From positions 3,952 to 27,587 of IMG/VR virus record IMGVR_UViG_3300000928_000505: a stretch of 23,636 nucleotides of DNA; one strand, 5' to 3'. The notes beneath the pieces are model-generated. The model ran no database searches. It saw nothing but the letters and a program-made list of their open reading frames with translations, and was not told where the DNA came from. Position numbers and translations under genes: made by a program. The DNA is from a virus. Shown here in pieces: positions 3,141 to 23,565 of this stretch (its first letter is position 1; each line of letters begins with the position of its first letter).

Positions 3141-4517
3141 TCAGAGTTGAATAATGATTTTTACGTCTTCGGTTTGGTCAACTGATCGTGTGATCGCAGC
3201 CCTATTATCTAAGTACAAGATAGAACCTGACATATTATTAACAGTTGGCAATGTATATGCATAATCGTCACCATCTATACCGGCAGCATCAAGGATGCCG
3301 TTGCCGTTGCCGTCGGCTTCAGTTACTGTTTCGCCTTCTAAAAACGGCGTGAATCCAGTTGTTTCTGTCTGGTGATACCAAACATAGCTTGAGTCGGCTT
3401 TGTCTACATATGCGCTTGCAGCCGAAGTTGCACCTACCAAAATTTTATCGGCCGAAAAGTTAGCACTAATAGAACCGAAGTGCAATCTATTTAAAACGTT
3501 TGCTGACGATTGTTCCCAGTCAGAATCAGTCGACAGTGGACCAACTTTAGGATCTCGAATGAGTGCAATTTGCCTGTAATCGTTACCTGTAATTACTGAG
3601 TTTGTTTCATCACCGGTCAATTGTGCATTAAACATAAGAGCGGTTGACCGCAAATCATCCCTTGGATCGCCGCCAATACCGGCGGGCGGAGCTAAAACAA
3701 CTCTAACCTCCGCGCCGGATCCGCCGCCACCAGATAATGTTGCTGCACCATATTTATAACCGCGGCCAAAAGCTTTGCCAGCGCCAGAATCGTTCATCTC
3801 AACTTTTACAATTGCACCGCCTGATATTGTTGCAGTGGCCGCTGCCTGTTTTACACCGTTACCTGTGAACGAAACAGTAGGCGCAGAAGTGTAACCTGAA
3901 CCTGGCGATACTACTTTTACGCCAATGATCTCACCTGCAATTGCACCGTTCTGGATACCTTTTTGTTCGATCTCAAGAGCCGAAGAGTTTGAGTCTGTTG
4001 TTCCTACAAGTTCAACTGGCATGTAGTTTGATGAAACAAACTTGGTAGCTCTCAGCGCGCCGATCGTATAGAGATATTTCCATACATATCCGTCCGGCGT
4101 TTTAAGCGGATCGACTGTAGTGCCGTTTGGCTTTGTTGTCGATGTAACAGCATTACCTGCCGCATCACGGCCTTGTTGCAGACAAATGTAAACAGCGTTT
4201 TCGTCAGTAAGAACATAATAGGCGTTAGTAGGATAACCTGCTACATAGTCGTCATAACCAGCATAAATTGTACCTGACGACCAGTTATTTCGTGGAATAA
4301 CATATGAAACATCTTCGCCAGACTTCATCGCCTGCATTGAATTTCTAAAATCACGCACGTCTTTTAACGTATTGGTTGGCGTAACTGCATTGTCGCTACT
4401 ATCCCATTGTTCACTGCGGCCTATACCAATATAGTATGACGCGTTCGAGTCTTTGACGCTAGTAAAGATATTATCTAATACTTGTCTTTTAAATGCATCT
4501 GTAATAATTGCAACCAT
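3141..4517 (-). CDS. 8: Baseplate wedge protein, gp8-like
   Basis: The 458-residue protein has an N-terminal half like the gp8 baseplate wedge proteins of marine T4-like phages: ITDAFKRQVLDNIF, SNASYYIGIGRSEQW, SYVIPRNNWSSGTIY, VYICLQQG and DGYVWKYLYTI. In T4, gp8 (334 residues) dimerises in the wedge with gp6, gp7, gp10 and gp53. This version is longer because of a Gly/Ala-rich beta segment around residues 200-280 (GSGYTSAPTVSFTGNG, later SGGGGSGAEV), a repeat type common in marine phage structural proteins. The ATG at 4517 has an AGGAA ribosome binding site (TAGGAA at 4524-4529). It sits between the fibre-like gene and the DUF4815 gene, near the end of the gp25-gp6-gp7-like series, matching T4 order 6-7-8. 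Assignment to gp8 is by family resemblance; the inserted segment has no assigned role. Confidence 0.72.
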   Translation of the reverse strand: MVAIITDAFKRQVLDNIFTSVKDSNASYYIGIGRSEQWDSSDNAVTPTNTLKDVRDFRNSMQAMKSGEDVSYVIPRNNWSSGTIYAGYDDYVAGYPTNAYYVLTDENAVYICLQQGRDAAGNAVTSTTKPNGTTVDPLKTPDGYVWKYLYTIGALRATKFVSSNYMPVELVGTTDSNSSALEIEQKGIQNGAIAGEIIGVKVVSPGSGYTSAPTVSFTGNGVKQAAATATISGGAIVKVEMNDSGAGKAFGRGYKYGAATLSGGGGSGAEVRVVLAPPAGIGGDPRDDLRSTALMFNAQLTGDETNSVITGNDYRQIALIRDPKVGPLSTDSDWEQSSANVLNRLHFGSISANFSADKILVGATSAASAYVDKADSSYVWYHQTETTGFTPFLEGETVTEADGNGNGILDAAGIDGDDYAYTLPTVNNMSGSILYLDNRAAITRSVDQTEDVKIIIQL

Positions 4518-9519: not shown

Positions 9520-11060
9520 TATTGAACACCTATGTGTCTATGATTTTCTTGAGGAGTATATTCAGGACCTACTGTTCGGCCGACCTTTCCAGGCGTAGCT
9601 TTTGTATAGTCGCCTGCAATTTTACCTTCGCCCACTTGCACTGCCATAAAATCTGTATTGTTAAGCGTACCATTGTCACGCATCTTAGATCGAGCTTCTG
9701 ATGTAGTCAATTGACGCGATGCAATACCTCCGGTAGATCCAGTTCTATCGATTGCGCCAAGCAAATCTCCGTTCGGATCTACAAGCACTTTCTGGATACC
9801 ATACGAAGACTTCTGATAGGCCTGCATCAACTCTCCGTCAGGCAATGCAGTATGCCCTGTGTCGTGTGCAAGTATGTCTGTATCGATAGCATTGTTTGTG
9901 ATGGGTGCGCCAGGTGAACCTACATTACCACCTGATCCTGGACCTGTATCTGGGTCAGAATACAACTGATGTCTGGACTGCCGTGCTTCTTCTGCAACAC
10001 CGTCAAGATCGCCATGAAATGTCGGGCTTGTCACGCTGTTACTTGCTACAATATCACCAGTCACTTCGACACGTGTTGCTGTAATTGTATCAACCGCAAG
10101 GGTGCCGGCCGTACCTGGACTACCGTCGCCTAGCCATACTGTATTACCGATATGTGCATTGTAAGAATATAGTGTTACGTTCTTACCGCCAAATGTTCCT
10201 TTGTCGCCAAAGACAGATAACTCGTTGGCCGCAATATTAGTGTCAGGGCTTGTCAAGTTCTGCCGAACCTCAGACGTCATTCGCATTTCGTCACTTGAGA
10301 ATAGATTACATGCTCCTTCGACCGATGTCGCCCATGCACCTTTCACTGCAGCAGTAAACCCGCCAAGATACGTATCGACTACGCCTTTTGCAACTGTCGT
10401 AAATTTGCCGCCCTTTACAATCAGGCCATCGTTCTTCTCGATGTTATATCGACGCGCGCCATCGATATCGGCTCGTTCATCTCCGGCAATAAATTTATTG
10501 TAGTTGCCTGCGACATTTAAGTTGTAATCACCGGTCACATCTACATTTAGATTACCTTGATGTGTCATATGCGTATTGCCTTCAACAACTATATGTGCGT
10601 CGTCTGCAGCTGAGATTAAAAGATCTTTGCCACTCGATATGTACACAGTGCCGTCTGGCTTGATCTCGATACCCGATCCACTCTTATGATGAATCAACAT
10701 CCGCTCGTTGCCAATTGTATCGTCCATCTCGATAATATGTCCACCCGGAGTTTCTATAACTTGGTTGTGTGGATAGGTCGATGCCGTCGCACTATTGTAC
10801 TGCCCGGCTGCCTTGGCGTCTCGTATAATCTTATCTTGATACACGTCTTCTTTTTGCAGCGTGGGTATGCCGCCATTTGTAGTAAGGTCATTGCGCTTAG
10901 TACCAAGCGACGCCATGTTGAGTGAAGACTTATAGAAGTAATCTGCTCGAGGATACAGACCAGAAGGATCTTGAAATCCTACCGGAAATACATTTTGTTT
11001 CTCGGCGCTCTTGCCGCTTTTTAAGATCCGGTCTTCAAGTTCGTCATTTTCTGTTGTCAT
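9519..11060 (-). CDS. Baseplate spike protein, gp5 C-terminal beta-helix type
   Basis: This 513-residue protein matches the beta-helical spike part of T4 gp5 (VgrG-like). After an N-terminal region of about 95 residues comes TPGGHIIEMDDT, ERMLIHHKSGSGIEIKPDG and TVYISSGKDLLISA (104-152). A run of about twelve in-register octapeptides with the T4 pattern VxGxxxxx then covers residues 159-254, for example VEGNTHMT, VTGDYNLN, VAGNYNKF, IAGDERAD, IDGARRYN, VKGGKFTT and VKGAWATS. Such repeats build the trimeric membrane-piercing needle below the hub. There is no OB fold or lysozyme domain here; those lie in the gene at 12656-13513. The C-terminal 150 residues are Gly/Asp-rich and probably capping or partner-binding. 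The gene overlaps the amidase gene upstream by 4 bp and the next gene by 1 bp. Confidence 0.85.
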   Translation of the reverse strand: MTTENDELEDRILKSGKSAEKQNVFPVGFQDPSGLYPRADYFYKSSLNMASLGTKRNDLTTNGGIPTLQKEDVYQDKIIRDAKAAGQYNSATASTYPHNQVIETPGGHIIEMDDTIGNERMLIHHKSGSGIEIKPDGTVYISSGKDLLISAADDAHIVVEGNTHMTHQGNLNVDVTGDYNLNVAGNYNKFIAGDERADIDGARRYNIEKNDGLIVKGGKFTTVAKGVVDTYLGGFTAAVKGAWATSVEGACNLFSSDEMRMTSEVRQNLTSPDTNIAANELSVFGDKGTFGGKNVTLYSYNAHIGNTVWLGDGSPGTAGTLAVDTITATRVEVTGDIVASNSVTSPTFHGDLDGVAEEARQSRHQLYSDPDTGPGSGGNVGSPGAPITNNAIDTDILAHDTGHTALPDGELMQAYQKSSYGIQKVLVDPNGDLLGAIDRTGSTGGIASRQLTTSEARSKMRDNGTLNNTDFMAVQVGEGKIAGDYTKATPGKVGRTVGPEYTPQENHRHIGVQ

Positions 11061-12652
11061 GCTGTTGATGTCCCTCTTGCTGACGCGATCTCTGCAACGG
11101 TCAACGGTTGTGTAGTTCCGCCTGTAATATTAGTTTTATTAAACTTATTCTTCACATACTGCGGCACGCTAAATCCAGGATCAATTTTGCCACGTGGATC
11201 TGTATCGCTATGGCCAAAGGCCTGTCCGCCTGGATATACTATGTAAAACGCGCCAAGAAATAACTCAAGCGCATTCATTTGAGCCGCATTAATTGATTCA
11301 GCCCCTACTAATTTTTCATATCCGGCCGTACCAGAAAGGCAAGTGTAACCGCCGACAAGCGATATGCCTATTGATTTATTGTTGTGTCCATTTGCTTTGG
11401 CATGCGCGCCTGTTCTGTTAATAGGTCTACCGCGCTGTATTCTACCATCGCGCCGTATAAGGTAGTGATAACCCATACCACTGAAGCCTCGAGCCAAATG
11501 CATGTTGTGTATATCTTGTGAGCTGTGATCTTGATCGAGAAACGAAGCAGTCCAGTGAACAACTACTTCTGTTATCTCACGTGTAGGACTTCGTAAATCT
11601 GCTTCAAGTTCTTCGACACCTGATATAAATGTAAATTCATAGGGCGAAGACGAACTTCCGCCGCCACCGCCAGCAGTCGAGCCGGTACTGGCTGGCGGCC
11701 TATACTGTGATGTTGGTGTTTGCACACCGTCCCAGCCCTGCGCATTTGATCCTATCTCAAAATCAGGTAACTGTTGTGATTGTGATCCTAAGACTTGATT
11801 ATAGTCTACACGATCTGACAACTTAGTGCTCAGATTACCTATGCCTGATTCTACTTGTGAAATAGGTAATGACGACACGCCTGCTACTGTAGCAATAGCC
11901 TGAGTAAAATCTCCTGTTTCAATAAGACGGGCGATCGAATTCATCTCTGCAGTTTTAAGTTTGCCTTGTGTAAGGGTAGATATCACTTGCACGATCGGCG
12001 TATCAATAGCATCAACAATGTTTTGTAGGGTCGAGCTAAGTGCAGTGCCAATACTAAGATTAGCCCTTACATTAAACTCTGCAATTACTGGACCAAGCGT
12101 TTGGCCAATTGCTCCAGCAAAGGCTTGTTGCACAAATGCTTGCGCAGATGCACCTTGCACTGCAGATACTGCAGCAAGCAATTGGCTGACAGGTTTACCA
12201 GTTGCAGTGCCAAGTAAACGTTGTATAGCCTGTCCGCCTGAACCTGAGAAATAACTTTGTAAAAATGGTGTAGTGGTCGGACTTCCGTTAGTTAACGCAG
12301 CAAGGGCGCCTGCAGTCGTCAGCACATCTGTAAATTGACTATGTTGTGCATCACCTCCAGAAAACAATTCTGATATATCTGTGATAAGAGAATCGACTAA
12401 TCCTGGTACAGTACCGGTCAACGCTGTTGTGACTGTGCCAAATATATTATCGCCAAACTGTCCAGGATAATCTTCGCCTGCCGTAAGTGCTTGGATGCCA
12501 TTTACTACTTCTCCTTGGAGCGCACCAAGCTTAGATGTGAGCTGCACGTTATATTGGCCAGCAACCTGGTTTGCTGCGTCAATAAGTGGAGTAGACGGAA
12601 ACCTTTGCTCAAATGTAGATAATGTATTGTTTAGTTTTGTAAATGATACCAT
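11057..12652 (-). CDS. Tail-associated N-acetylmuramoyl-L-alanine amidase with long N-terminal region
   Basis: This 531-residue protein has two parts. Residues 1-310 are helical-looking, Ala/Gln/Ser/Thr-rich and free of cysteine. A Gly/Ser linker (about 321-337) leads to a C-terminal amidase_2/PGRP domain (about 355-500) that aligns by eye with T7 lysozyme: EVVVHWTAS (H366), MGYHYLIRRDGRI (Y395), AHAKANGHNNKSIGISLVGG and GHSDTDPRGKIDPGF (H481, K489, D491). H366, H481 and D491 would bind zinc, with D491 replacing the T7 cysteine, while Y395 and K489 correspond to the catalytic Tyr and Lys. Such enzymes cut the MurNAc-L-Ala bond. Sitting between the gp5 OB-fold gene and the spike, it is probably a virion enzyme for entry rather than an endolysin for host lysis. 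The role of the N-terminal part is unknown. Confidence 0.85.
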   Translation of the reverse strand: MVSFTKLNNTLSTFEQRFPSTPLIDAANQVAGQYNVQLTSKLGALQGEVVNGIQALTAGEDYPGQFGDNIFGTVTTALTGTVPGLVDSLITDISELFSGGDAQHSQFTDVLTTAGALAALTNGSPTTTPFLQSYFSGSGGQAIQRLLGTATGKPVSQLLAAVSAVQGASAQAFVQQAFAGAIGQTLGPVIAEFNVRANLSIGTALSSTLQNIVDAIDTPIVQVISTLTQGKLKTAEMNSIARLIETGDFTQAIATVAGVSSLPISQVESGIGNLSTKLSDRVDYNQVLGSQSQQLPDFEIGSNAQGWDGVQTPTSQYRPPASTGSTAGGGGGSSSSPYEFTFISGVEELEADLRSPTREITEVVVHWTASFLDQDHSSQDIHNMHLARGFSGMGYHYLIRRDGRIQRGRPINRTGAHAKANGHNNKSIGISLVGGYTCLSGTAGYEKLVGAESINAAQMNALELFLGAFYIVYPGGQAFGHSDTDPRGKIDPGFSVPQYVKNKFNKTNITGGTTQPLTVAEIASARGTSTA

Positions 12653-12655
12653 AAT

Positions 12656-13513
12656 CTAGCTCCAGTTCTTAATAGCTTTGGCACTAGCCGGAATACCATC
12701 ACGCACGCCAATGCCGGCCGGTTTTCTTCCGTACCAAGGACCCCAGCCGCCGGTTGCAACCTTGTCAAGAGCATATCGCACTTGGTTTGTTACACCGTCA
12801 CGCGTATTGTCATTTCTCAAATCGCGATTAGTCGCTGATTCATAATCATTACCCATGCCACCACCTACATATAATTGAAATGGTCCGTATGACGCTTCAC
12901 GCCCGCCGCGCTTGAGTTGGTTGCCGGCTGTCACACTTGATTGATATATGCCTCCACCTTCGGCCTTCCATAGGCGCACTGCAATATTAGGATCTATGCC
13001 TCGAAGATTTGACTCTTGTCGGATTTGTTGCTCGATCCATGCATTTGACACATCAGAAGGATATTGTGGAATACCTGTGTTAGATGTAGTGCTGCGAGAT
13101 GATCCGGCAGTATTGTAATTAACACTATTCTCACGCGCTGTGGCCGGATCTGTTTGATCTACACCATAGCCAATGTCTCTATTCTGTGATGCGACTAGCT
13201 GCTGTTCAGACGGTATTTCAATGCGTGGCACTACTCCTAAGACAAGAGGCAATTGGCTTTCGGCGCCGTCCATAAAAAACCCTACGACCTGCGCACCCGG
13301 TAAAATCTGCGGCATTGCGCCTATACCAGATGTGCCGCCAGATGTTGTTGGTTGCATGACACTTGCCCAAGGTAGTTGTGAGTTCTGGATCGCATCATGA
13401 TTACGATTATGTATTCCAAAAATACGTACTTGCACGCGTCCTAATTGTAAAGGATCAAGGTTATTCACCACAATCCCAACAAACCATCTAAATGAATCAC
13501 CATAATGCTGCAT
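12656..13513 (-). CDS. 5: Baseplate hub gp5: OB fold plus lytic transglycosylase-like domain
   Basis: The 285-residue protein has an N-terminal gp5/VgrG OB-fold hub domain (residues about 5-100: YGDSFRWFVGIVVNNLDPLQLG, RVQVRIFGIH, QLPWASVMQPTTSGG, MDGAESQLPLVLGVVP). A Ser/Thr/Asn linker (100-155) follows. The C-terminal region (about 155-285) looks like a goose-type or SLT-type muramidase/transglycosylase: IDPNIAVRLWKAEGGG with candidate catalytic Glu185, then EASYGPFQL at 207-214, the usual G-P-x-Q(L) element. The OB fold should dock on the gp27-like hub encoded just upstream, and the enzyme should cut glycan strands during infection. T4 gp5 (575 residues) has OB, lysozyme and beta-helix in one chain; here the helix is encoded separately. 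The ATG overlaps the upstream stop by 1 bp. The OB part is certain; the enzyme class is less so. Confidence 0.85.
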   Translation of the reverse strand: MQHYGDSFRWFVGIVVNNLDPLQLGRVQVRIFGIHNRNHDAIQNSQLPWASVMQPTTSGGTSGIGAMPQILPGAQVVGFFMDGAESQLPLVLGVVPRIEIPSEQQLVASQNRDIGYGVDQTDPATARENSVNYNTAGSSRSTTSNTGIPQYPSDVSNAWIEQQIRQESNLRGIDPNIAVRLWKAEGGGIYQSSVTAGNQLKRGGREASYGPFQLYVGGGMGNDYESATNRDLRNDNTRDGVTNQVRYALDKVATGGWGPWYGRKPAGIGVRDGIPASAKAIKNWS

Positions 13514-16665: not shown

Positions 16666-17163
16666 GTGGCTTACTCTGGTAAATACGTAGTGAAAAATCC
16701 TGCTAAGTACAAAGGCGACTCTTTAAATGTAGTATATCGATCGCTCTGGGAGAAATATTGCTTCAAGTGGTGTGACACAAATAAAGACGTCAAATCATGG
16801 AGCAGCGAAGAAGTTGTTGTACCGTATTACTATGATATCGATAAAAAATATCATCGATACTTTGTTGATCTTAAGGTTACTTATGGCAACGGTAAGACAT
16901 GGCTAATCGAGATTAAACCTGAGAAAGAGACGCAACCACCAAAGGGTGACAAGCGTACAAAGCGATACCTGCAAGAAGGTATGACATATGTTAAGAATAT
17001 GAACAAGTGGGAGGCCGCAAATAAGTATGCGCTTGACCGCAAGTGGGAGTTTCACATATGGACAGAAAAAACCCTACAAGAAATGGGTTTAATGTCAAAA
17101 CCGCTCAAGAAATTAAAACCTTTGCCTAAGCCGAAAAAAACTCCGAGAAAAAAGCATAAATAG
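16666..17163 (+). CDS. 4: Head completion protein gp4 (PD-(D/E)xK nuclease-like)
   Basis: The 165-residue protein is a clear gp4-type head completion protein: YSGKYVVKNPAKYKGD, VVYRSLWEKYCFKWCDTNKD, WSSEEVVVPYYY, HRYFVDLKVTYGNG and TWLIEIKPEKETQPP. T4 gp4 has 150 residues and acts after DNA packaging, allowing the head to join the tail. The fold is TnsA-like, and the candidate PD-(D/E)xK residues are E29, D68, E82 and K84 (E-I-K). The C-terminus is strongly basic (KPLKKLKPLPKPKKTPRKKHK begins near 145). I chose the GTG at 16666 because it is preceded by AGG at 16656-16658 and gives the conserved N-terminus; no ATG is available upstream. It is the first gene of the plus-strand cluster and is followed after 5 bp by gp2. 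Confidence 0.88.
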   Translation: MAYSGKYVVKNPAKYKGDSLNVVYRSLWEKYCFKWCDTNKDVKSWSSEEVVVPYYYDIDKKYHRYFVDLKVTYGNGKTWLIEIKPEKETQPPKGDKRTKRYLQEGMTYVKNMNKWEAANKYALDRKWEFHIWTEKTLQEMGLMSKPLKKLKPLPKPKKTPRKKHK

Positions 17164-17168
17164 AGTTT

Positions 17169-17753
17169 ATGAGCAATATATTTCAAAACCTAGAATACGA
17201 AGCCTTTAGAGCTGGCATAACCCCACGGTCAAAAGAATCAATCAAATGGTTCCGCCAAAAAGCGCAAGCCATGGGAAAAGTTAGTCGAAAAGCACTGATG
17301 AACGAAGAGCCTGTGAAATTAAAAGGTCGCAGCGCCGTCGGCAATATGTACATGTATTTCTACGACCCAAAGGGTAAAGATACATTGCCGTTTTATGATA
17401 GCTTCCCGTTGACCATTGTCATTGGTCCGGCGAAAGGCGGTTTTATGGGGTTGAACTTGCATTATCTTCCGCCGATCCTTCGAGCACGTATGCTTGATGC
17501 ACTGATGGATATTACAAGCAATAGTAAGTACGACGAGACAACTAAGTTCCAGGTATCATATAACCTGTTGCAGTCTACCTCAAAACTCAAGTATTATAAA
17601 CCATGTGTCAAACATTATTTAACTGCACATGTAAGAAGTAAGTTTGCATACGTGCCTCCGCCCGAGTGGGAGATCGCTACGTTCCTGCCGACTGCAGACT
17701 TCCAAAAACAAAATAAGGCTTCGGTCTATAAAATTTCACGGAGCATGATTTAA
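17169..17753 (+). CDS. 2: DNA end protector, gp2-like
   Basis: The 194-residue protein resembles the proteins annotated as DNA end protector in marine T4-like phages: MYMYFYDPKGKDTLPFYDSF, FPLTIVIGP, GFMGLNLHYLPPILRARMLDAL, FQVSYNLLQSTSKLKYYKPCVKHYL and VRSKFAYVPPPEWEIATFLP. T4 gp2 (274 residues) rides on the packaged DNA end and shields it from RecBCD on injection; the sequence link to T4 gp2 is distant, so that role is carried over from family annotation. In T4, genes 2, 4, 53 and 5 are adjacent; here 2 and 4 are on the opposite strand from 53 and 5 but still next to them. The stop overlaps the next start (TAATG at 17751-17755), implying coupling. Confidence 0.65.
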   Translation: MSNIFQNLEYEAFRAGITPRSKESIKWFRQKAQAMGKVSRKALMNEEPVKLKGRSAVGNMYMYFYDPKGKDTLPFYDSFPLTIVIGPAKGGFMGLNLHYLPPILRARMLDALMDITSNSKYDETTKFQVSYNLLQSTSKLKYYKPCVKHYLTAHVRSKFAYVPPPEWEIATFLPTADFQKQNKASVYKISRSMI

Positions 17754-18334
17754 TGTCATTTTCAATAGACGAATTTAAAGGTGCAGTCAGCAAGGGTATT
17801 GCTGTACCAAACATGTTTCGCGTGTATTTGCCGTCGCTTCCTGGTATTGTTACTACGCGCCAGCTAAACCTATTGTGCAAAGATGTAGTGCTTCCTGGTC
17901 GTCAGATCTTGACTAACGAACGCGTCATTGGCATGAAGCAGGTGAAGCAGGCATATGGTTATGCACAAGAAGACGTGTCAATGACTTTTTATGTGACTAA
18001 TGACTATGCACTTAAAGAATATTTTGAGGCGTGGCAAGATCTTATCATAACAGATAAAGAATTAAATTACCCAGATGAATATGGCTATGAAGTACGTATC
18101 GAGCAACTTGAAAAGGGCGCTGCTCTTGACTTGCCTTTAGATATTAACTTTAGTTTATTTGGTTTAAATATTGATATTGATATAGATTTATTTAAGTCGT
18201 CCAAGTCGATATATACATGTATATTAGACAAAGCATTTCCTACATCTATGAATGCTATCCAACTAAATAGTGATGCAAATGGCATCGTTGAATTGAACGT
18301 ACAATTGTCCTATAAGGACTGGAGATCAGTATAA
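17753..18334 (+). CDS. Tail-tube-family protein (gp19/gp54-like)
   Basis: The 193-residue protein has the tail tube fold signature of T4-like phages: NMFRVYLPSLPG, LLCKDVVLPGRQIL, YGYAQEDVSMTFYVTNDYALKE, YFEAWQDLI, then the end strand YTCILDKAFPTSMNAIQL and ELNVQLSYKDW. T4 gp19 has 163 residues. The normal gp19 gene sits beside gp18 and gp20, so a copy placed directly before gp26 and the tape measure is more likely a paralogue serving as tube initiator (gp54 function) or another hub-tube adaptor. An insert rich in Asp/Ile/Phe (INFSLFGLNIDIDIDLF, about residues 127-143) interrupts the C-terminal part and is absent from ordinary gp19. The stop is followed after 1 bp by the gp26 ATG. Confidence 0.7.
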   Translation: MSFSIDEFKGAVSKGIAVPNMFRVYLPSLPGIVTTRQLNLLCKDVVLPGRQILTNERVIGMKQVKQAYGYAQEDVSMTFYVTNDYALKEYFEAWQDLIITDKELNYPDEYGYEVRIEQLEKGAALDLPLDINFSLFGLNIDIDIDLFKSSKSIYTCILDKAFPTSMNAIQLNSDANGIVELNVQLSYKDWRSV

Positions 18335-18335
18335 A

Positions 18336-19046
18336 ATGGCTTTACCTAAGTTAAACGCAGTACCAAAGTACGACATTGTCGTACCGTCAACACAGCAAGC
18401 TGTCCGCTTTCGGCCGTATCTTGTAAAAGAAGAAAAAGTCTTGATGCTCGCAATGGAGTCTCAGGACCAGAAACAATCGTTAAATGCAATTGTAGACACA
18501 ATTGTCGCATGCGTCAGCGAAGACATTGAGCGCAATAAGCTTACTACATTTGATGTTGAATATATGTTCACACAGATTAGATCTAAGTCTGTGGGTGAAA
18601 CATCTAAGGTGTCTATCAAATGCAAAGAGTGCGATCACTCAAACGAAGTTGTGATTCCGCTCGAGTCAATTAAAATCAATATGCCTGATAATATTGTCAC
18701 GCTAATCGAGCTGACACCTGAAATTTCGGTACAACTCAAATGGCCGACATATTCTGATTTAGGCAACCTTGATATGAGCGAAGGTGCAAGTCAAGTTAAG
18801 CAGACCTTTGAAATGATTTCTAAATGCATCGATTCAGTTCTTACTGGTGATGAACGCATTAGTATGAAAGATGAACCAAAAGAAGAAGTCATGGACTTCA
18901 TTGAATCGCTTACATCTGAACAGTTTGATAAGATCCGTGAGTTTGTTGAACAAATGCCTAAACTAAAGCATGATGTGGAGTTTACATGCACGTCGTGTAG
19001 CGAAGCAAATAAAATTACCTTGGAGGGTATGAACGATTTTTTCTAA
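18336..19046 (+). CDS. 26: Baseplate hub assembly chaperone gp26
   Basis: The 236-residue protein matches the T4 gp26 family (208 residues in T4): MALPKLNAVPKYDIVVPST, VRFRPYLVKEEKVLMLAMES (about 23-42), TTFDVEYMFTQIRSKSVGE and VSIKCKECDHSNEVVIPL. Two CxxC pairs, C96/C99 and C218/C221, make a zinc-ribbon-like Cys4 site. In contractile and siphophage tails the gene pair just before the tape measure encodes tail assembly chaperones made by frameshifting; gp26 has exactly that place here. It ends Asp-Phe-Phe-stop on a slippery heptamer (see the frameshift site at 19022-19046), so a fraction of ribosomes should continue into the gp51 frame. The start ATG is 1 bp after the tube gene's stop. Confidence 0.88.
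   Translation: MALPKLNAVPKYDIVVPSTQQAVRFRPYLVKEEKVLMLAMESQDQKQSLNAIVDTIVACVSEDIERNKLTTFDVEYMFTQIRSKSVGETSKVSIKCKECDHSNEVVIPLESIKINMPDNIVTLIELTPEISVQLKWPTYSDLGNLDMSEGASQVKQTFEMISKCIDSVLTGDERISMKDEPKEEVMDFIESLTSEQFDKIREFVEQMPKLKHDVEFTCTSCSEANKITLEGMNDFF
19022..19046 (+). promoter_or_regulatory. Programmed -1 ribosomal frameshift site (gp26 to gp51)
   Basis: In the gp26 frame the codons are GAT TTT TTC TAA. The last T of GAT plus TTT TTC form the heptamer T TTT TTC (19037-19043), a canonical X XXY YYZ -1 slippery sequence. The stop codon follows at once (19044-19046). A Shine-Dalgarno-like GGAGGG (19022-19027) lies 9 nt upstream, the geometry known to stimulate -1 shifting in E. coli dnaX. After slipping, reading resumes as CTA ATA GCC and stays open for 63 codons. 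I see no convincing downstream hairpin. This is inferred from sequence only. Confidence 0.78.
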
Positions 19047-19234
19047 TAGCCCTTTCCCACGAATCTCTGATCGGATACTTTAAGACTAATTTCTCTTTGA
19101 TGCAACATCATCATTACTCATTAACCGAAATAGAAGAGATGATACCATGGGAGAGGGAAGTATATTTAACAATGCTCATTGAACATATAAAAGAAGAAAA
19201 TGAACGAGCCAAGGAACAGCAAAGTAAAAGATAA
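19043..19234 (+). CDS. 51: gp51-type extension of gp26, reached by -1 frameshift
   Basis: A frame one base back from gp26 is open from 19043 to the TAA at 19232-19234, encoding LIALSHESLIGYFKTNFSL, MQHHHYSLTEIEEMIPWERE and VYLTMLIEHIKEENERAKEQ, then QSKR. This resembles the short gp51-type baseplate hub assembly proteins of marine T4-like phages, whose conserved part begins at ALSHxSL. No ATG, GTG or TTG with a ribosome binding site precedes that part. The only in-frame ATG near its start (19100) would remove 19 conserved residues and has no Shine-Dalgarno. I therefore read it as the C-terminal part of a 299-residue gp26-gp51 fusion, join(18336..19043,19043..19234). Its stop overlaps the tape measure ATG (TAATG at 19232-19236), so only shifted ribosomes would reinitiate there by coupling. 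Confidence 0.78.
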   Translation, partial: LIALSHESLIGYFKTNFSLMQHHHYSLTEIEEMIPWEREVYLTMLIEHIKEENERAKEQQSKR

Positions 19235-21561
19235 TGGCTGAAAAAACAACACTGTCTGAAATAAAACGCGAAATTGCAAAAGGCAATAAGGCGCAGTCAA
19301 ATACGACTGATGCTCTCCTTACGCTCAACGCTACATTTGTTAGGCAGTTTAAGTTAGAAGCAGACGCAAATAGCTCCGGCGATAGACTTGAAGATAAGCT
19401 AGAAGGTGCTAAAACCCCTAAGCTCGAACAAAAACCTATGACCGGCTTTAAACCATTAGACGATGCCGGCGCTAATATTACAGCCGTGTTTGCTAGGCTT
19501 GCTAATTTAGGCAAGCTTGTCGCAGGCTTTACAGCAGGCCTTGCTGCTGTAGCTGCTGCATTTGCGGGCATGCGCGGGTGGGAACTTCCTGTTTTAAAAC
19601 GAATTAGCAATATTAAGTTTGACAATCTTTTCCCAGAGTCATTATCCAAAACCCTTCAACAGAAATTTTTAAATGTTCGGGCACGTGTTTTAAGGTTCTT
19701 TAACATGAGTGCTGTTCTTCCTAAGGGAGAGGATGGCAAACAGATCAAATCTATTGGCGGGCAAATAGCTAATTCATTTAAGAATGCCAAGGCAAGTATA
19801 CTCAAAGGATTTGGTATCGGCGCTGATGGAAAGCTTATTGCTTTGCAGGGCGAAGATGGCAAATTCAAGTCTCCGAAGATCGGTCGGTTCCTTATCCAGA
19901 TGAGATCGCTGTTTAGTCCTATCACTAAAGTTGGGGCTGCGATTGGTGAATTCTTTACGAGTGGTTTTGGATCAAAGATAGTTACCTTTATGAAGGGTGG
20001 CGCAACAAAACTTTTAGCAGTATTTGGTAAAGTACTTTGGCCTATCGGTGTTCTGGTGTCAGCCTTTAAAGGTGTCACAGACTTTATGGATACTGAAGGA
20101 ACGTTTTATGAAAAGTTTACGGCCGGTATTAGTACTGCAGTTGCAGACTTCGTTGGTGCTCCGCTAAACCTTTTAAAAGATCTGATTGCATGGGGTCTAA
20201 AGAAGCTTGGCTTTGATGAAGGCGCCGAATGGCTGGAAGGCATTGACTTTGTTAAACCAATAAAAGATATGATTACTAGTGTCATGGAATGGTTCGGTAC
20301 GCTGTTTACAGATCCTGTAACAGCATTAAAGCAATTATGGACTGGTGCACTTAACCTATTAGTTGCAGGTGCAACAACACTGACAGATATATACTTCTAT
20401 CCAATCAATAAAGTAATAGAGTGGATTGGTTCTATGTTCGGTTGGAAAACGACTGACGAAGAAGGTAACCAATTTAAGCTACAGACATTTATAGGAGATG
20501 CAATCTCTGATGTTGTGACATGGGTTAAAGGGGTGTTTGCAAATCCGGTTGAGTCTTTAAAGGCATTATGGACAACACTTCTTGATGGCGTGGCCAGCAT
20601 AGGTGCGTGGATATATGATAATGCTATAAAACCTGTATTTGATTATTTCACCGGTATATTCAAGTGGTCTGTAGACGGTGTAACAAAGGTTACTGATAGC
20701 ATCGCAACTATAGTAGGAGATATGGTAACCGGCGCATGGAATTATGTCAAAAAGCTATTTGTATTTGATGAGGGTATCGAAGGCATCATTGCGTCACTAA
20801 TCAATGTGACGACAATCGTACCTAACCTTGTCAAGGATGCGATATTAGGCATTACATCATGGCTAGCCGGAAAATTAGGATTTAGTGAAGAAGCCGAAGA
20901 GCTTTCTAAGTGGAAAGACTACAGTATAGGCGCACTTGCCGTACTAGCATTTAAAAATGTCAAAGAGTGGCTTAAGGGTAAGTTTAGTGGTGAGATTAAT
21001 CTAGGCGGACTGTCATTTAGCCTGACTGATATAGTCACGGCTCTTAGTGACAACATTGGCCTGATGAAGGATATCTTAGTAGCACAGATCTCATACAGTG
21101 TTAAAAGGTTGGTTAACGGATTTAAGATAAGCTTCGAAAGGGCTGCTAACTTCATAGCAAATCTTGGTGATGAACTATACTTAATGATATCTGAGAATTT
21201 CAGATTTAAACTTCCTGAAATTAATATTCCTGAAACATTTCTTACACCGGCGTTTAATCTTATTCCAGCAATTGATGTAGGCGTAGGCGATGCATCAACA
21301 AGAATTGCGGCCAGAGATCGGATCCAAGGTAGGGATCTCGCCAGTGAAAATAAAATTAGTGCGCTGCAGAAAGAAACTGGCAATGAGTTATCAAATGTTC
21401 AGGCATTGCAAGCACAGCTGGCTAGTAATATAAGCCAAGTAATAAACGTCGCGCCGGTTACCGCAAATACAAGCAATAACAACGTCCAGTCACAAACAAT
21501 AAATGGAGCCACTTCTTCAAGCGACTCCATGTTTGATCTTGTCGGTGCTGGTCCTGGTTAG
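19234..21561 (+). CDS. 29: Tail length tape measure protein (gp29-like)
   Basis: This 775-residue protein is the longest in the plus-strand cluster and sits right after the chaperone pair, the universal place of the tape measure gene. It has long Ala/Gly/Leu-rich hydrophobic helices, for example ARLANLGKLVAGFTAGLAAV continuing to about residue 113, and KVLWPIGVLVSAFKGV further on. It also has many amphipathic helices and only a Gln/Asn/Ser-rich tail after residue 710. An internal repeat pairs residues about 347-373 (ITSVMEWFGTLFTDPVTALK) with 424-450 (ISDVVTWVKGVFANPVESLK), both ending in LW. There is no cysteine. T4 gp29 has 590 residues; length scales with the tail in tape measures generally. 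The stop overlaps the gp32 stop on the other strand by 4 bp. The role is assigned from composition and position, not from sequence match to T4 gp29. Confidence 0.82.
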   Translation: MAEKTTLSEIKREIAKGNKAQSNTTDALLTLNATFVRQFKLEADANSSGDRLEDKLEGAKTPKLEQKPMTGFKPLDDAGANITAVFARLANLGKLVAGFTAGLAAVAAAFAGMRGWELPVLKRISNIKFDNLFPESLSKTLQQKFLNVRARVLRFFNMSAVLPKGEDGKQIKSIGGQIANSFKNAKASILKGFGIGADGKLIALQGEDGKFKSPKIGRFLIQMRSLFSPITKVGAAIGEFFTSGFGSKIVTFMKGGATKLLAVFGKVLWPIGVLVSAFKGVTDFMDTEGTFYEKFTAGISTAVADFVGAPLNLLKDLIAWGLKKLGFDEGAEWLEGIDFVKPIKDMITSVMEWFGTLFTDPVTALKQLWTGALNLLVAGATTLTDIYFYPINKVIEWIGSMFGWKTTDEEGNQFKLQTFIGDAISDVVTWVKGVFANPVESLKALWTTLLDGVASIGAWIYDNAIKPVFDYFTGIFKWSVDGVTKVTDSIATIVGDMVTGAWNYVKKLFVFDEGIEGIIASLINVTTIVPNLVKDAILGITSWLAGKLGFSEEAEELSKWKDYSIGALAVLAFKNVKEWLKGKFSGEINLGGLSFSLTDIVTALSDNIGLMKDILVAQISYSVKRLVNGFKISFERAANFIANLGDELYLMISENFRFKLPEINIPETFLTPAFNLIPAIDVGVGDASTRIAARDRIQGRDLASENKISALQKETGNELSNVQALQAQLASNISQVINVAPVTANTSNNNVQSQTINGATSSSDSMFDLVGAGPG

Positions 21562-22539: not shown

Positions 22540-23565
22540 TTATTCAAAAACAATTACGTCACCATCGGAATAAACGCTGGTCATTTCTTCGTATTGGACC
22601 TTATCGATAGAGACGCTTTGACAAGCACCCACTGTACTACATGGATAACCTATCTTTTCAAAGTTTTGCATCTTTAACTGATTAACAAAGTTAATCCGCC
22701 TTTGTGACTGCCAAACTTCTAATACTGTTTGTTCTTTTAAATTGCCAAGCACAAGATCCTGATTATCATCAAGGCAACATGCATAGTAATCACCATTTGG
22801 TGCTATGTACATCACTTCTTGTATCGCTGATATGAGCGGGCATTTTAAATCGGGTTGTGACTTATATTCTCCGGATTTAAATTTAGATCTTTCGGCCCAT
22901 AAGCCTGATTCACTATGCCTGACTAGCGTGAGCGAATCATATATGTGTTCACCCAATTCGTCTTTAAGCATTTGTGTCACAAGCTCGTGAGAGCTAAATG
23001 GCACTGATGTTCCTGGTTTTACTTGAGCCGGATATTTATTAAATACAGTGAACACTGTAGTAGCGTATTCAAAAGCAGGCATTACATTAATCGCAAAATT
23101 CATTTCAGGATAATGTTTGGCGCGCAACTCTAAAAAATGTTTTAGATTTTTCATCACTGATTTGAGTGGAATACCTTTCACTGCACCGTATGAATCTTGA
23201 TTGTGCCCATCAACGTTGACTTGAATTGAATAGAAAAGTTTTTCCTTCACTAAGATCTCTGCAACCTTTTTAGACATGAGTCCAAAATTACTTAGCATAT
23301 CAACTTCGGTGTTTGGCAATTTCTTTTTTATGTATCGTAGAATTTCAATAAAATCTTTATGATATAGTGCCTCACCATTCTCACTCATATGCATATTTTT
23401 AATCTCATACGGAAATGCCGGATCAGAAATCTCATCAACGATCTTAAAGACCAAATCTTTATCCATGTCAAAATGCAATTTGGTGCCCCGAGAACTAGGA
23501 CACCAAATACATGTTGCATTACATCTGTTAGATAAGATAAAATTTATATTGCGCAGCGGCTTCAT
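22540..23565 (-). CDS. Radical SAM enzyme with SPASM-like C-terminus
   Basis: The 341-residue protein has the radical SAM cluster motif CxxxCxxC at C15, C19, C22 (FILSNRCNATCIWCPSS) and the SAM-binding NGE in MSENGEALYH (63-65). TIM-barrel strands follow, for example EVDMLSNFGL and SIQVNVDGHNQDSY. The C-terminal region carries C242, then IAPNGDYYACCLDDNQDLVLG with C263/C264, NLKEQTVLEVWQS, and C309/C315 (PCSTVGAC), the pattern of a SPASM/twitch extension that binds a second Fe-S cluster. Such enzymes modify peptides or small molecules; nothing here identifies the substrate, and no adjacent precursor peptide is visible. The ATG overlaps the upstream gene's TGA by 4 bp (ATGA), so it belongs to the gp33-gp32 transcription unit. 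T4 has gene 59 at this place. Enzyme class is secure; function is not known. Confidence 0.88.
   Translation of the reverse strand: MKPLRNINFILSNRCNATCIWCPSSRGTKLHFDMDKDLVFKIVDEISDPAFPYEIKNMHMSENGEALYHKDFIEILRYIKKKLPNTEVDMLSNFGLMSKKVAEILVKEKLFYSIQVNVDGHNQDSYGAVKGIPLKSVMKNLKHFLELRAKHYPEMNFAINVMPAFEYATTVFTVFNKYPAQVKPGTSVPFSSHELVTQMLKDELGEHIYDSLTLVRHSESGLWAERSKFKSGEYKSQPDLKCPLISAIQEVMYIAPNGDYYACCLDDNQDLVLGNLKEQTVLEVWQSQRRINFVNQLKMQNFEKIGYPCSTVGACQSVSIDKVQYEEMTSVYSDGDVIVFE

Follow-up and report, generated by a model that had tools for sequence, protein, structure and literature searches.

How is the gp51 part of a T4-like tail locus translated when its reading frame opens without a start codon of its own? 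This question is raised by a 23,636-nucleotide stretch of viral DNA (positions 3,952 to 27,587 of IMG/VR virus record IMGVR_UViG_3300000928_000505; hereafter, the window), in which a gp26-type open reading frame (ORF) of 236 aa (18336-19046, + strand) is overlapped at its 3′ end by a gp51-type sequence in the -1 frame. The earliest ATG, GTG or TTG of the -1 frame is a TTG that lies 18 codons past the site at which a ribosome might slip. The initial annotation had proposed that one gene makes two products here by a programmed -1 frameshift, as a pair like the lambda G/GT tail assembly chaperones, placed before the tape measure gene. Our analysis supports this proposal at the level of sequence. 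A programmed -1 frameshift, yielding gp26 (236 aa) as the short chaperone form (lambda G-like; TAC-N, from tail assembly chaperone, TAC) and a gp26-gp51 fusion (299 aa) as the long form, is very probably the best explanation of the locus.

The 3′ end of the gp26 gene reads ACC TTG GAG GGT ATG AAC GAT TTT TTC TAA. The slippery heptamer T TTT TTC (19037-19043, + strand), in the zero frame, directly precedes the stop codon of the short form, TAA (19044-19046, + strand). The -1-frame ORF (19013-19234, + strand; 73 codons plus stop) is bounded upstream by the stop codon TAA at 19010-19012, and an in-frame heptamer of the form X XXY YYZ, as in programmed -1 frameshift sites, thus lies within the overlap of the two frames. 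The codons that follow the slip are CTA ATA GCC, so that the fusion would read ...NDFF-LIALSH... across the junction and continue through a C-terminal "gp51/T" extension of 63 codons (19043-19231, + strand). The -1-frame stop codon, TAA (19232-19234), shares one base with the ATG of the tape measure gene (19234-19236), in the arrangement TAATG. A Shine-Dalgarno (SD)-like GGAGGG (19022-19027, + strand), a candidate stimulator internal to gp26, lies 9 nt before the heptamer. These elements had been described in the initial annotation, and they proved exact to the base: the heptamer directly at the gp26 stop, the GGAGGG 9 nt upstream, the 63 open codons of the -1 frame and the overlap of its stop codon with the tape measure ATG.

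The two parts of the gene matched established protein families. The gp26 product belongs to PF12322 (T4_baseplate; E 8e-63), with 212.5 bits against a curated cut-off of 24.5, and in a PHROG scan it matched phrog_150 "baseplate hub" (E 1.9e-65) over profile positions 5-232. In the same scan, the -1 product matched phrog_634 "baseplate hub assembly catalyst" (E 2.2e-29), in agreement with its description as gp51-type, and also the C-terminal end of phrog_150, positions 227-281 (E 4.9e-7). Because the two parts fall on adjoining segments of one profile, phrog_150 seemingly already includes long proteins with both N- and C-terminal parts. A Pfam scan of the -1 product returned no family at E 1; its identity therefore rests on PHROGs and homologues.

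We next consider how the junction is kept among relatives. Two similarity scans of IMG/VR were made from the window, and the best 80 of at least 599 stretches were taken from each; with 3 GenBank isolate loci and the window itself, this gave 162 records (158 of them IMG/VR loci). Three records with gp26 and no gp51 match (L006, L044 and L075) were dropped, leaving 159 with both parts, and removal of 53 duplicates over 120 junction bases left 106 distinct junctions. The C-terminal part stood in the -1 frame, with an in-frame T TTT TTN in the overlap, in 106 of 106. Since both the -1 relation and the heptamer were kept in every distinct junction, the site is not a product of chance. The seventh base of the heptamer varied (C in 34, T in 33, A in 22 and G in 17), and the second slip codon encoded Phe in 67 junctions and Leu in 39. 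The Leu codon at this position was TTA or TTG in 39 of 39 cases, as compared to near-even use in the gp26 bodies (888 TTR vs 813 CTN). TTT makes up 78% of Phe codons in the background, and T-ending codons 64% of the class that precedes them; both wobble Ts were nevertheless kept in all 47 clusters formed at <60% identity, for which the chance expectation, ignoring the remaining relatedness, is approximately 1e-14.

An independent collection gave a similar result. Among GTDB genomes, mostly metagenome bins with phage DNA, 40 loci were found, of which 39 were readable (in L239, junction bases were masked). The site was kept in 39 of 39, and the gp51-type domain was recognized in the -1 frame in 38; the remaining locus (L207) gave no domain match, yet its -1 frame was open and the slip site was present. 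We also fetched 22 records of isolated or named phages (L159-L180). Eighteen of these had the -1 layout, including C48C1, Mosig and S-CAM1, which are also among the 106 junctions, and 4 (T4, RB49, IME13 and Acj61) had two separate genes. The run of six Ts (T6) was kept in 14 of the 18, including KVP40, S-PM2, Pelagibacter phage Mosig, Stenotrophomonas phage Moby and rhizobial phages, and was absent from Vi01, Ds16CZ, PWKp5 and D492. In Moby and OLIVR6, with 54% and 48% GC over the fetched stretch, Phe in gp26 is mostly encoded by TTC, yet the slip site reads TTT TTC and is the sole T6 on its strand within that stretch.

The -1 frame is also coding. In the 104 of the 106 junction records that entered the profiles and the entropy count, the entropies of the three codon positions of the -1 frame were 0.84, 0.47 and 1.28 bits, respectively. 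This coding pattern indicates that the -1 ORF is under constraint at the protein level.

The T4 proteins provide a further view of the long form. In T4, genes 26 and 51 encode proteins of 208 and 249 aa, respectively, from opposite strands, and both proteins span PF12322 whole (215.6 bits for gp26 and 177.5 bits for gp51). They matched each other in BLASTP (E 2e-6), and the gp26 and gp51 profiles of T4, RB49, IME13 and Acj61 matched mutually in four-sequence searches (E 4.6e-8 to 1.5e-22). T4 gp51 reaches phrog_150 position 280 and also matches phrog_634. Similarly, the profile of the -1 domain, in which a duplicate of the window (L001) stood for the window, matched the C-terminus of gp51 from IME13 (E 1e-10), RB49 (E 1e-8), T4 (E 1e-6) and, weakly, Acj61 (E 8e-4). 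Thus, gp51 of these four phages is the full, in-frame long form with N- and C-terminal parts and an opposite-strand paralogue of gp26. Judged from their domains, T4 gp26 corresponds to the short form of the window and T4 gp51 to its long form, so that the short marine "gp51" ORF is the C-terminal piece of the long form alone. As these four phages carry one continuous ORF for both parts, the fused protein exists in relatives of the window. In contrast to the window, T4 has two homologous genes on opposed strands and requires no frameshift; the end of its gp26 gene, GAG TTC TTT GAG TTA CTA TAA (complement strand, read by eye), contains no slip site. The earlier statement that two genes of the T4 nomenclature are here a single frameshifted gene thus needs a correction, since T4 gp51 is a complete second copy with both parts.

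The two layouts were also separated on an unrooted tree of hand-picked sequences, in which the window itself is not included and its neighbourhood is represented by other marine rows. One branch (support 98/92) split 27 rows with the -1 layout, KVP40 among them, from 8 two-gene rows, with long branches noted. An intermixing of the two states on the tree was rejected, as they form two sides of that one branch. The single branch fits one switch between layouts, and an unrooted tree gives no direction for it.

The slip site and its conservation, the coding character of the -1 frame, the family membership and the gene order can all be read from the sequence, and they suggest the following course of events. 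Ribosomes translating gp26 would pause over UUU UUC before the stop codon, aided by the SD-like element upstream. A fraction would slip back by one base, with the pairing shifted from U UUU UUC to UUU UUU, and read 63 codons in the -1 frame. The output would be much of the 236-aa gp26 short form and some of the 299-aa gp26-gp51 long form. By analogy with lambda G/GT, the tape measure protein may be covered by the N-terminal part that both forms share, and tail tube subunits may be brought in by the C-terminal part as the tail is assembled.

Candidate stimulators of slippage were assessed in 63 representatives at <70% identity, with synonymous shuffles as control. The GG at -11/-10 was invariant in 63 of 63. 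Mean pairing with the anti-SD sequence was -6.8 kcal/mol, as compared to -5.4 in the synonymous shuffles and -3.2 in other gp26 windows, and it exceeded the shuffle mean in 50 of 63 representatives (sign test 1.5e-6, ignoring relatedness). Across relatives, these results support the SD-like element as a possible stimulator, as placed in the initial annotation. A downstream stem-loop or pseudoknot was rejected as a stimulator, being lacking in the window and weakly indicated across relatives.

We also compared the predicted structure of gp26 with known tail chaperones. In an AlphaFold2 model of gp26 (pLDDT 86.5), the initial 86-96 residues were best matched by 3fgx (Z 7.7), by 2ob9 from the HK97 tail assembly chaperone (Z 6.7; rmsd 4.2, 83 aligned of 107) and by 3klu YqbN (Z 5.9); the ranking then dropped to a Z of 2.7 at the next row. 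In a viral structure library, the top named matches were mostly gp26-type proteins, one of which is named baseplate hub assembly chaperone. A search of the gp26 profile against the sequences of solved structures gave a lone match, at E 0.67. The fold matches support, without proving, a tail chaperone fold. The gp26 product also contains four invariant cysteines, arranged as two CxxC pairs, which look like a zinc ribbon. At the sequence level, the locus has the features of a chaperone pair, with an N-terminal part shared by both predicted forms and a C-terminal extension on one.

The lambda G/GT genes lie between the tail tube and tape measure genes, and their slip site is G-rich. The window has the same gene order: a tail tube gene (17753-18334, + strand; phrog_45, E 7e-33), gp26, the gp51 part and a probable tape measure gene (19234-21561, + strand; 775 aa). 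The product of the latter matched phrog_6090 (E 4e-6) and phrog_305 (E 5e-6); these tape-measure matches are weaker than its top match, to the unnamed phrog_27688 (E 1e-10). As in lambda, a short product would be accompanied by a -1-frameshifted long one, a likeness of layout. The window differs from lambda in its slip sequence, T TTT TTC rather than a G-rich one, and in its N-terminal part of about 236 aa, in which two CxxC pairs are invariant. In lambda, neither the short nor the long product is retained in the virion, and frameshifting of the G-T kind is described as widely conserved except in T4 (PMC5009743). T4 gp51 is likewise reported as needed, yet absent from the particle (PMC3004832).

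The mechanism is not new. It is known in many phages and has already been reported in outline for T4-like ones. Two papers attribute a T4-like version of G/GT, for which the initial annotation could not say how widely it had been described, to Vladimirov, Gautam and Davidson 2022 (Virology 566:9-15), a study cited for poly-T -1 slippery sequences in T4-like TAC-N genes (PMC12846349). Some T4-like phages instead hold a short gene together with a longer, fused one, as described with reference to the same study (PMC10885494). Both layouts, as the citing papers describe them, agree with those found here. Given these reports, the kind is known, and the window, together with its relatives from IMG/VR, adds new, uncultivated members to it. 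The TAC of Vandenendeviridae and Andersonviridae (phage Adele) also has a conserved poly-T -1 site that ends TAC-N and an open -1 frame before the tape measure gene (PMC12846349); it differs in its GTTTTT motif and is comparable to gp26 in site and layout. In the open-licence literature, we found nothing that combined programmed frameshifting, a tail assembly chaperone and a cyanophage, and no cyanophage frameshift title on this locus. The available parts of PMC9247103 and PMC8718954 contained nothing on it, and in that of PMC12671138 only the Vladimirov study, in the reference list, was found.

The frameshift must be weighed against other routes to the same proteins. It is possible, but unlikely, that gp51 is translated separately, by termination and reinitiation at the gp26 stop codon, which in the window would need a non-standard start such as the ATA at 19046. 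The close overlap of the gp26 stop with the downstream frame would suit such a restart, and several public records list gp51 as its own gene. An ATG that begins on the final base of the gp26 stop codon (TAATG or TGATG) is present in 8 of the 18 isolates with the -1 layout, namely R10Z, KVP40, Moby, phiM7, RHph_I46, XG4, Ds16CZ and D492 (records L165, L166, L169, L172, L173, L174, L176 and L180), and in S-PM2, S-CAM7 and S-N03 an ATG follows 1-2 codons later. However, in 94 of the 106 junctions, the window included, the earliest standard start comes 8 or more codons after the slip, and conserved residues precede it. Reinitiation also gives no role to the in-frame T6, which is present in 106 of 106 junctions and is retained in all 9 T6-bearing isolates with an early start. 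Moreover, gp51 of the T4 type is a continuous protein with both parts, and the annotated gp51 starts of C48C1 and Mosig fall well inside the conserved domain. The claim that no start precedes the conserved gp51 N-terminus thus stands for the window and most of its close relatives, but not for these 9 isolates.

Less probable still is that both forms arise from transcriptional slippage, by stuttering of RNA polymerase on the T-run. The seventh base of the heptamer is a T in 33 of the 106 junctions, giving a run of eight Ts where the stop codon follows at once. Against this, 73 of the 106 runs, including that of the window, stop at exactly six Ts, with C, A or G as the next base, and six Ts are short for efficient polymerase slippage. 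The T-run also keeps the phase X XXY YYZ in every case, and upstream of it lies an SD-like element; in dnaX, the SD lies at a distance like that of the element in the window. That the gp51 frame is a relic in decay, or that a once continuous gene was split by an assembly error, might be suggested by the continuous form of T4-type relatives but has a negligible probability and is already refuted by conservation, as the same -1 break occurs at the same place in 106 of 106 junctions, 39 of 39 further loci and the isolates, in a frame under coding constraint.

Several observations weigh against the frameshift. A start lies upstream of the slip in 7 of the 106 junctions and 1-3 codons past it in 5, and an ATG or GTG follows it by 2-3 codons in 9 of the 14 isolates with T6 (R10Z, KVP40, Moby, phiM7, RHph_I46, XG4, S-PM2, S-CAM7 and S-N03); in all of these, unlike in the window, a restart is possible, and in the isolates it could supplement or replace slippage. 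The possibility of polymerase slippage counts here as well. The SD-like element of the window is not significant by itself, with 7.9% of synonymous shuffles equally strong. A search for a downstream stem-loop or pseudoknot in the window gave no stable RNA structure (z +0.78), and the downstream folding signal across the 63 representatives was weak (mean z -1.48 vs -0.86 in a control stretch; z below -2 in 24 of 63 vs 10 of 62). All 106 junctions were found through similarity to the window and are mutually related. As to the fold, the Foldseek E value for 2ob9 was 1.4, and Z scores below 8 can reflect a widespread arrangement. Slippage itself, its efficiency, the ratio of the products and their chaperone action are inferred.

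The Ackermannviridae present a different junction. In this family the -1 relation was found in 18 of 18 IMG/VR loci (13 distinct junctions and 5 duplicates), with no T6 and with a fixed junction, GA[AG] ATT TTC AT[TC] TAA; the match to the C-terminal domain was weak (15-19 bits). Because these phages keep the -1 layout without T6 but with a fixed junction, either a non-canonical slip site, with slippage on U UUC, or a restart at ATT or ATG may operate, and both are possible. A gp26 end of the form GA[AG]ATTTTCAT[TC]TAA, with a weak gp51-like domain in the -1 frame, was noted in the Ackermannviridae records L182-L199 and in L164, L176 and L177. We tentatively raise the possibility that one chaperone family reaches the same short and long output in three ways, by U6 slippage in marine T4-like phages and many others, by duplication into opposed genes in the T4 group and by a third way in the Ackermannviridae.

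Other genes of the window were noted in passing. An ORF with a GTG start (16666-17163, + strand) encodes a TnsA-like endonuclease domain (E 2.3e-17) and occupies the spot of the gp4 head completion/closure gene in related phages. A 531-aa baseplate-region protein with an Amidase_2 domain (11057-12652, - strand) adjoins a gp5-OB-domain protein (12656-13513). A phage radical SAM protein with a SPASM domain (22540-23565, - strand) adjoins a gp32-like ssDNA-binding gene.

For the T4-like phages, the comparison clears up a misleading name, as the short marine "gp51" is only the end of the equivalent of T4 gp51. Some public records start gp51 inside its conserved domain (C48C1, Mosig and OLIVR6) or omit the second part (S-CAM1 and S-CAM7). 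The junction itself would represent a natural U6 frameshift site that is well conserved across marine phages.

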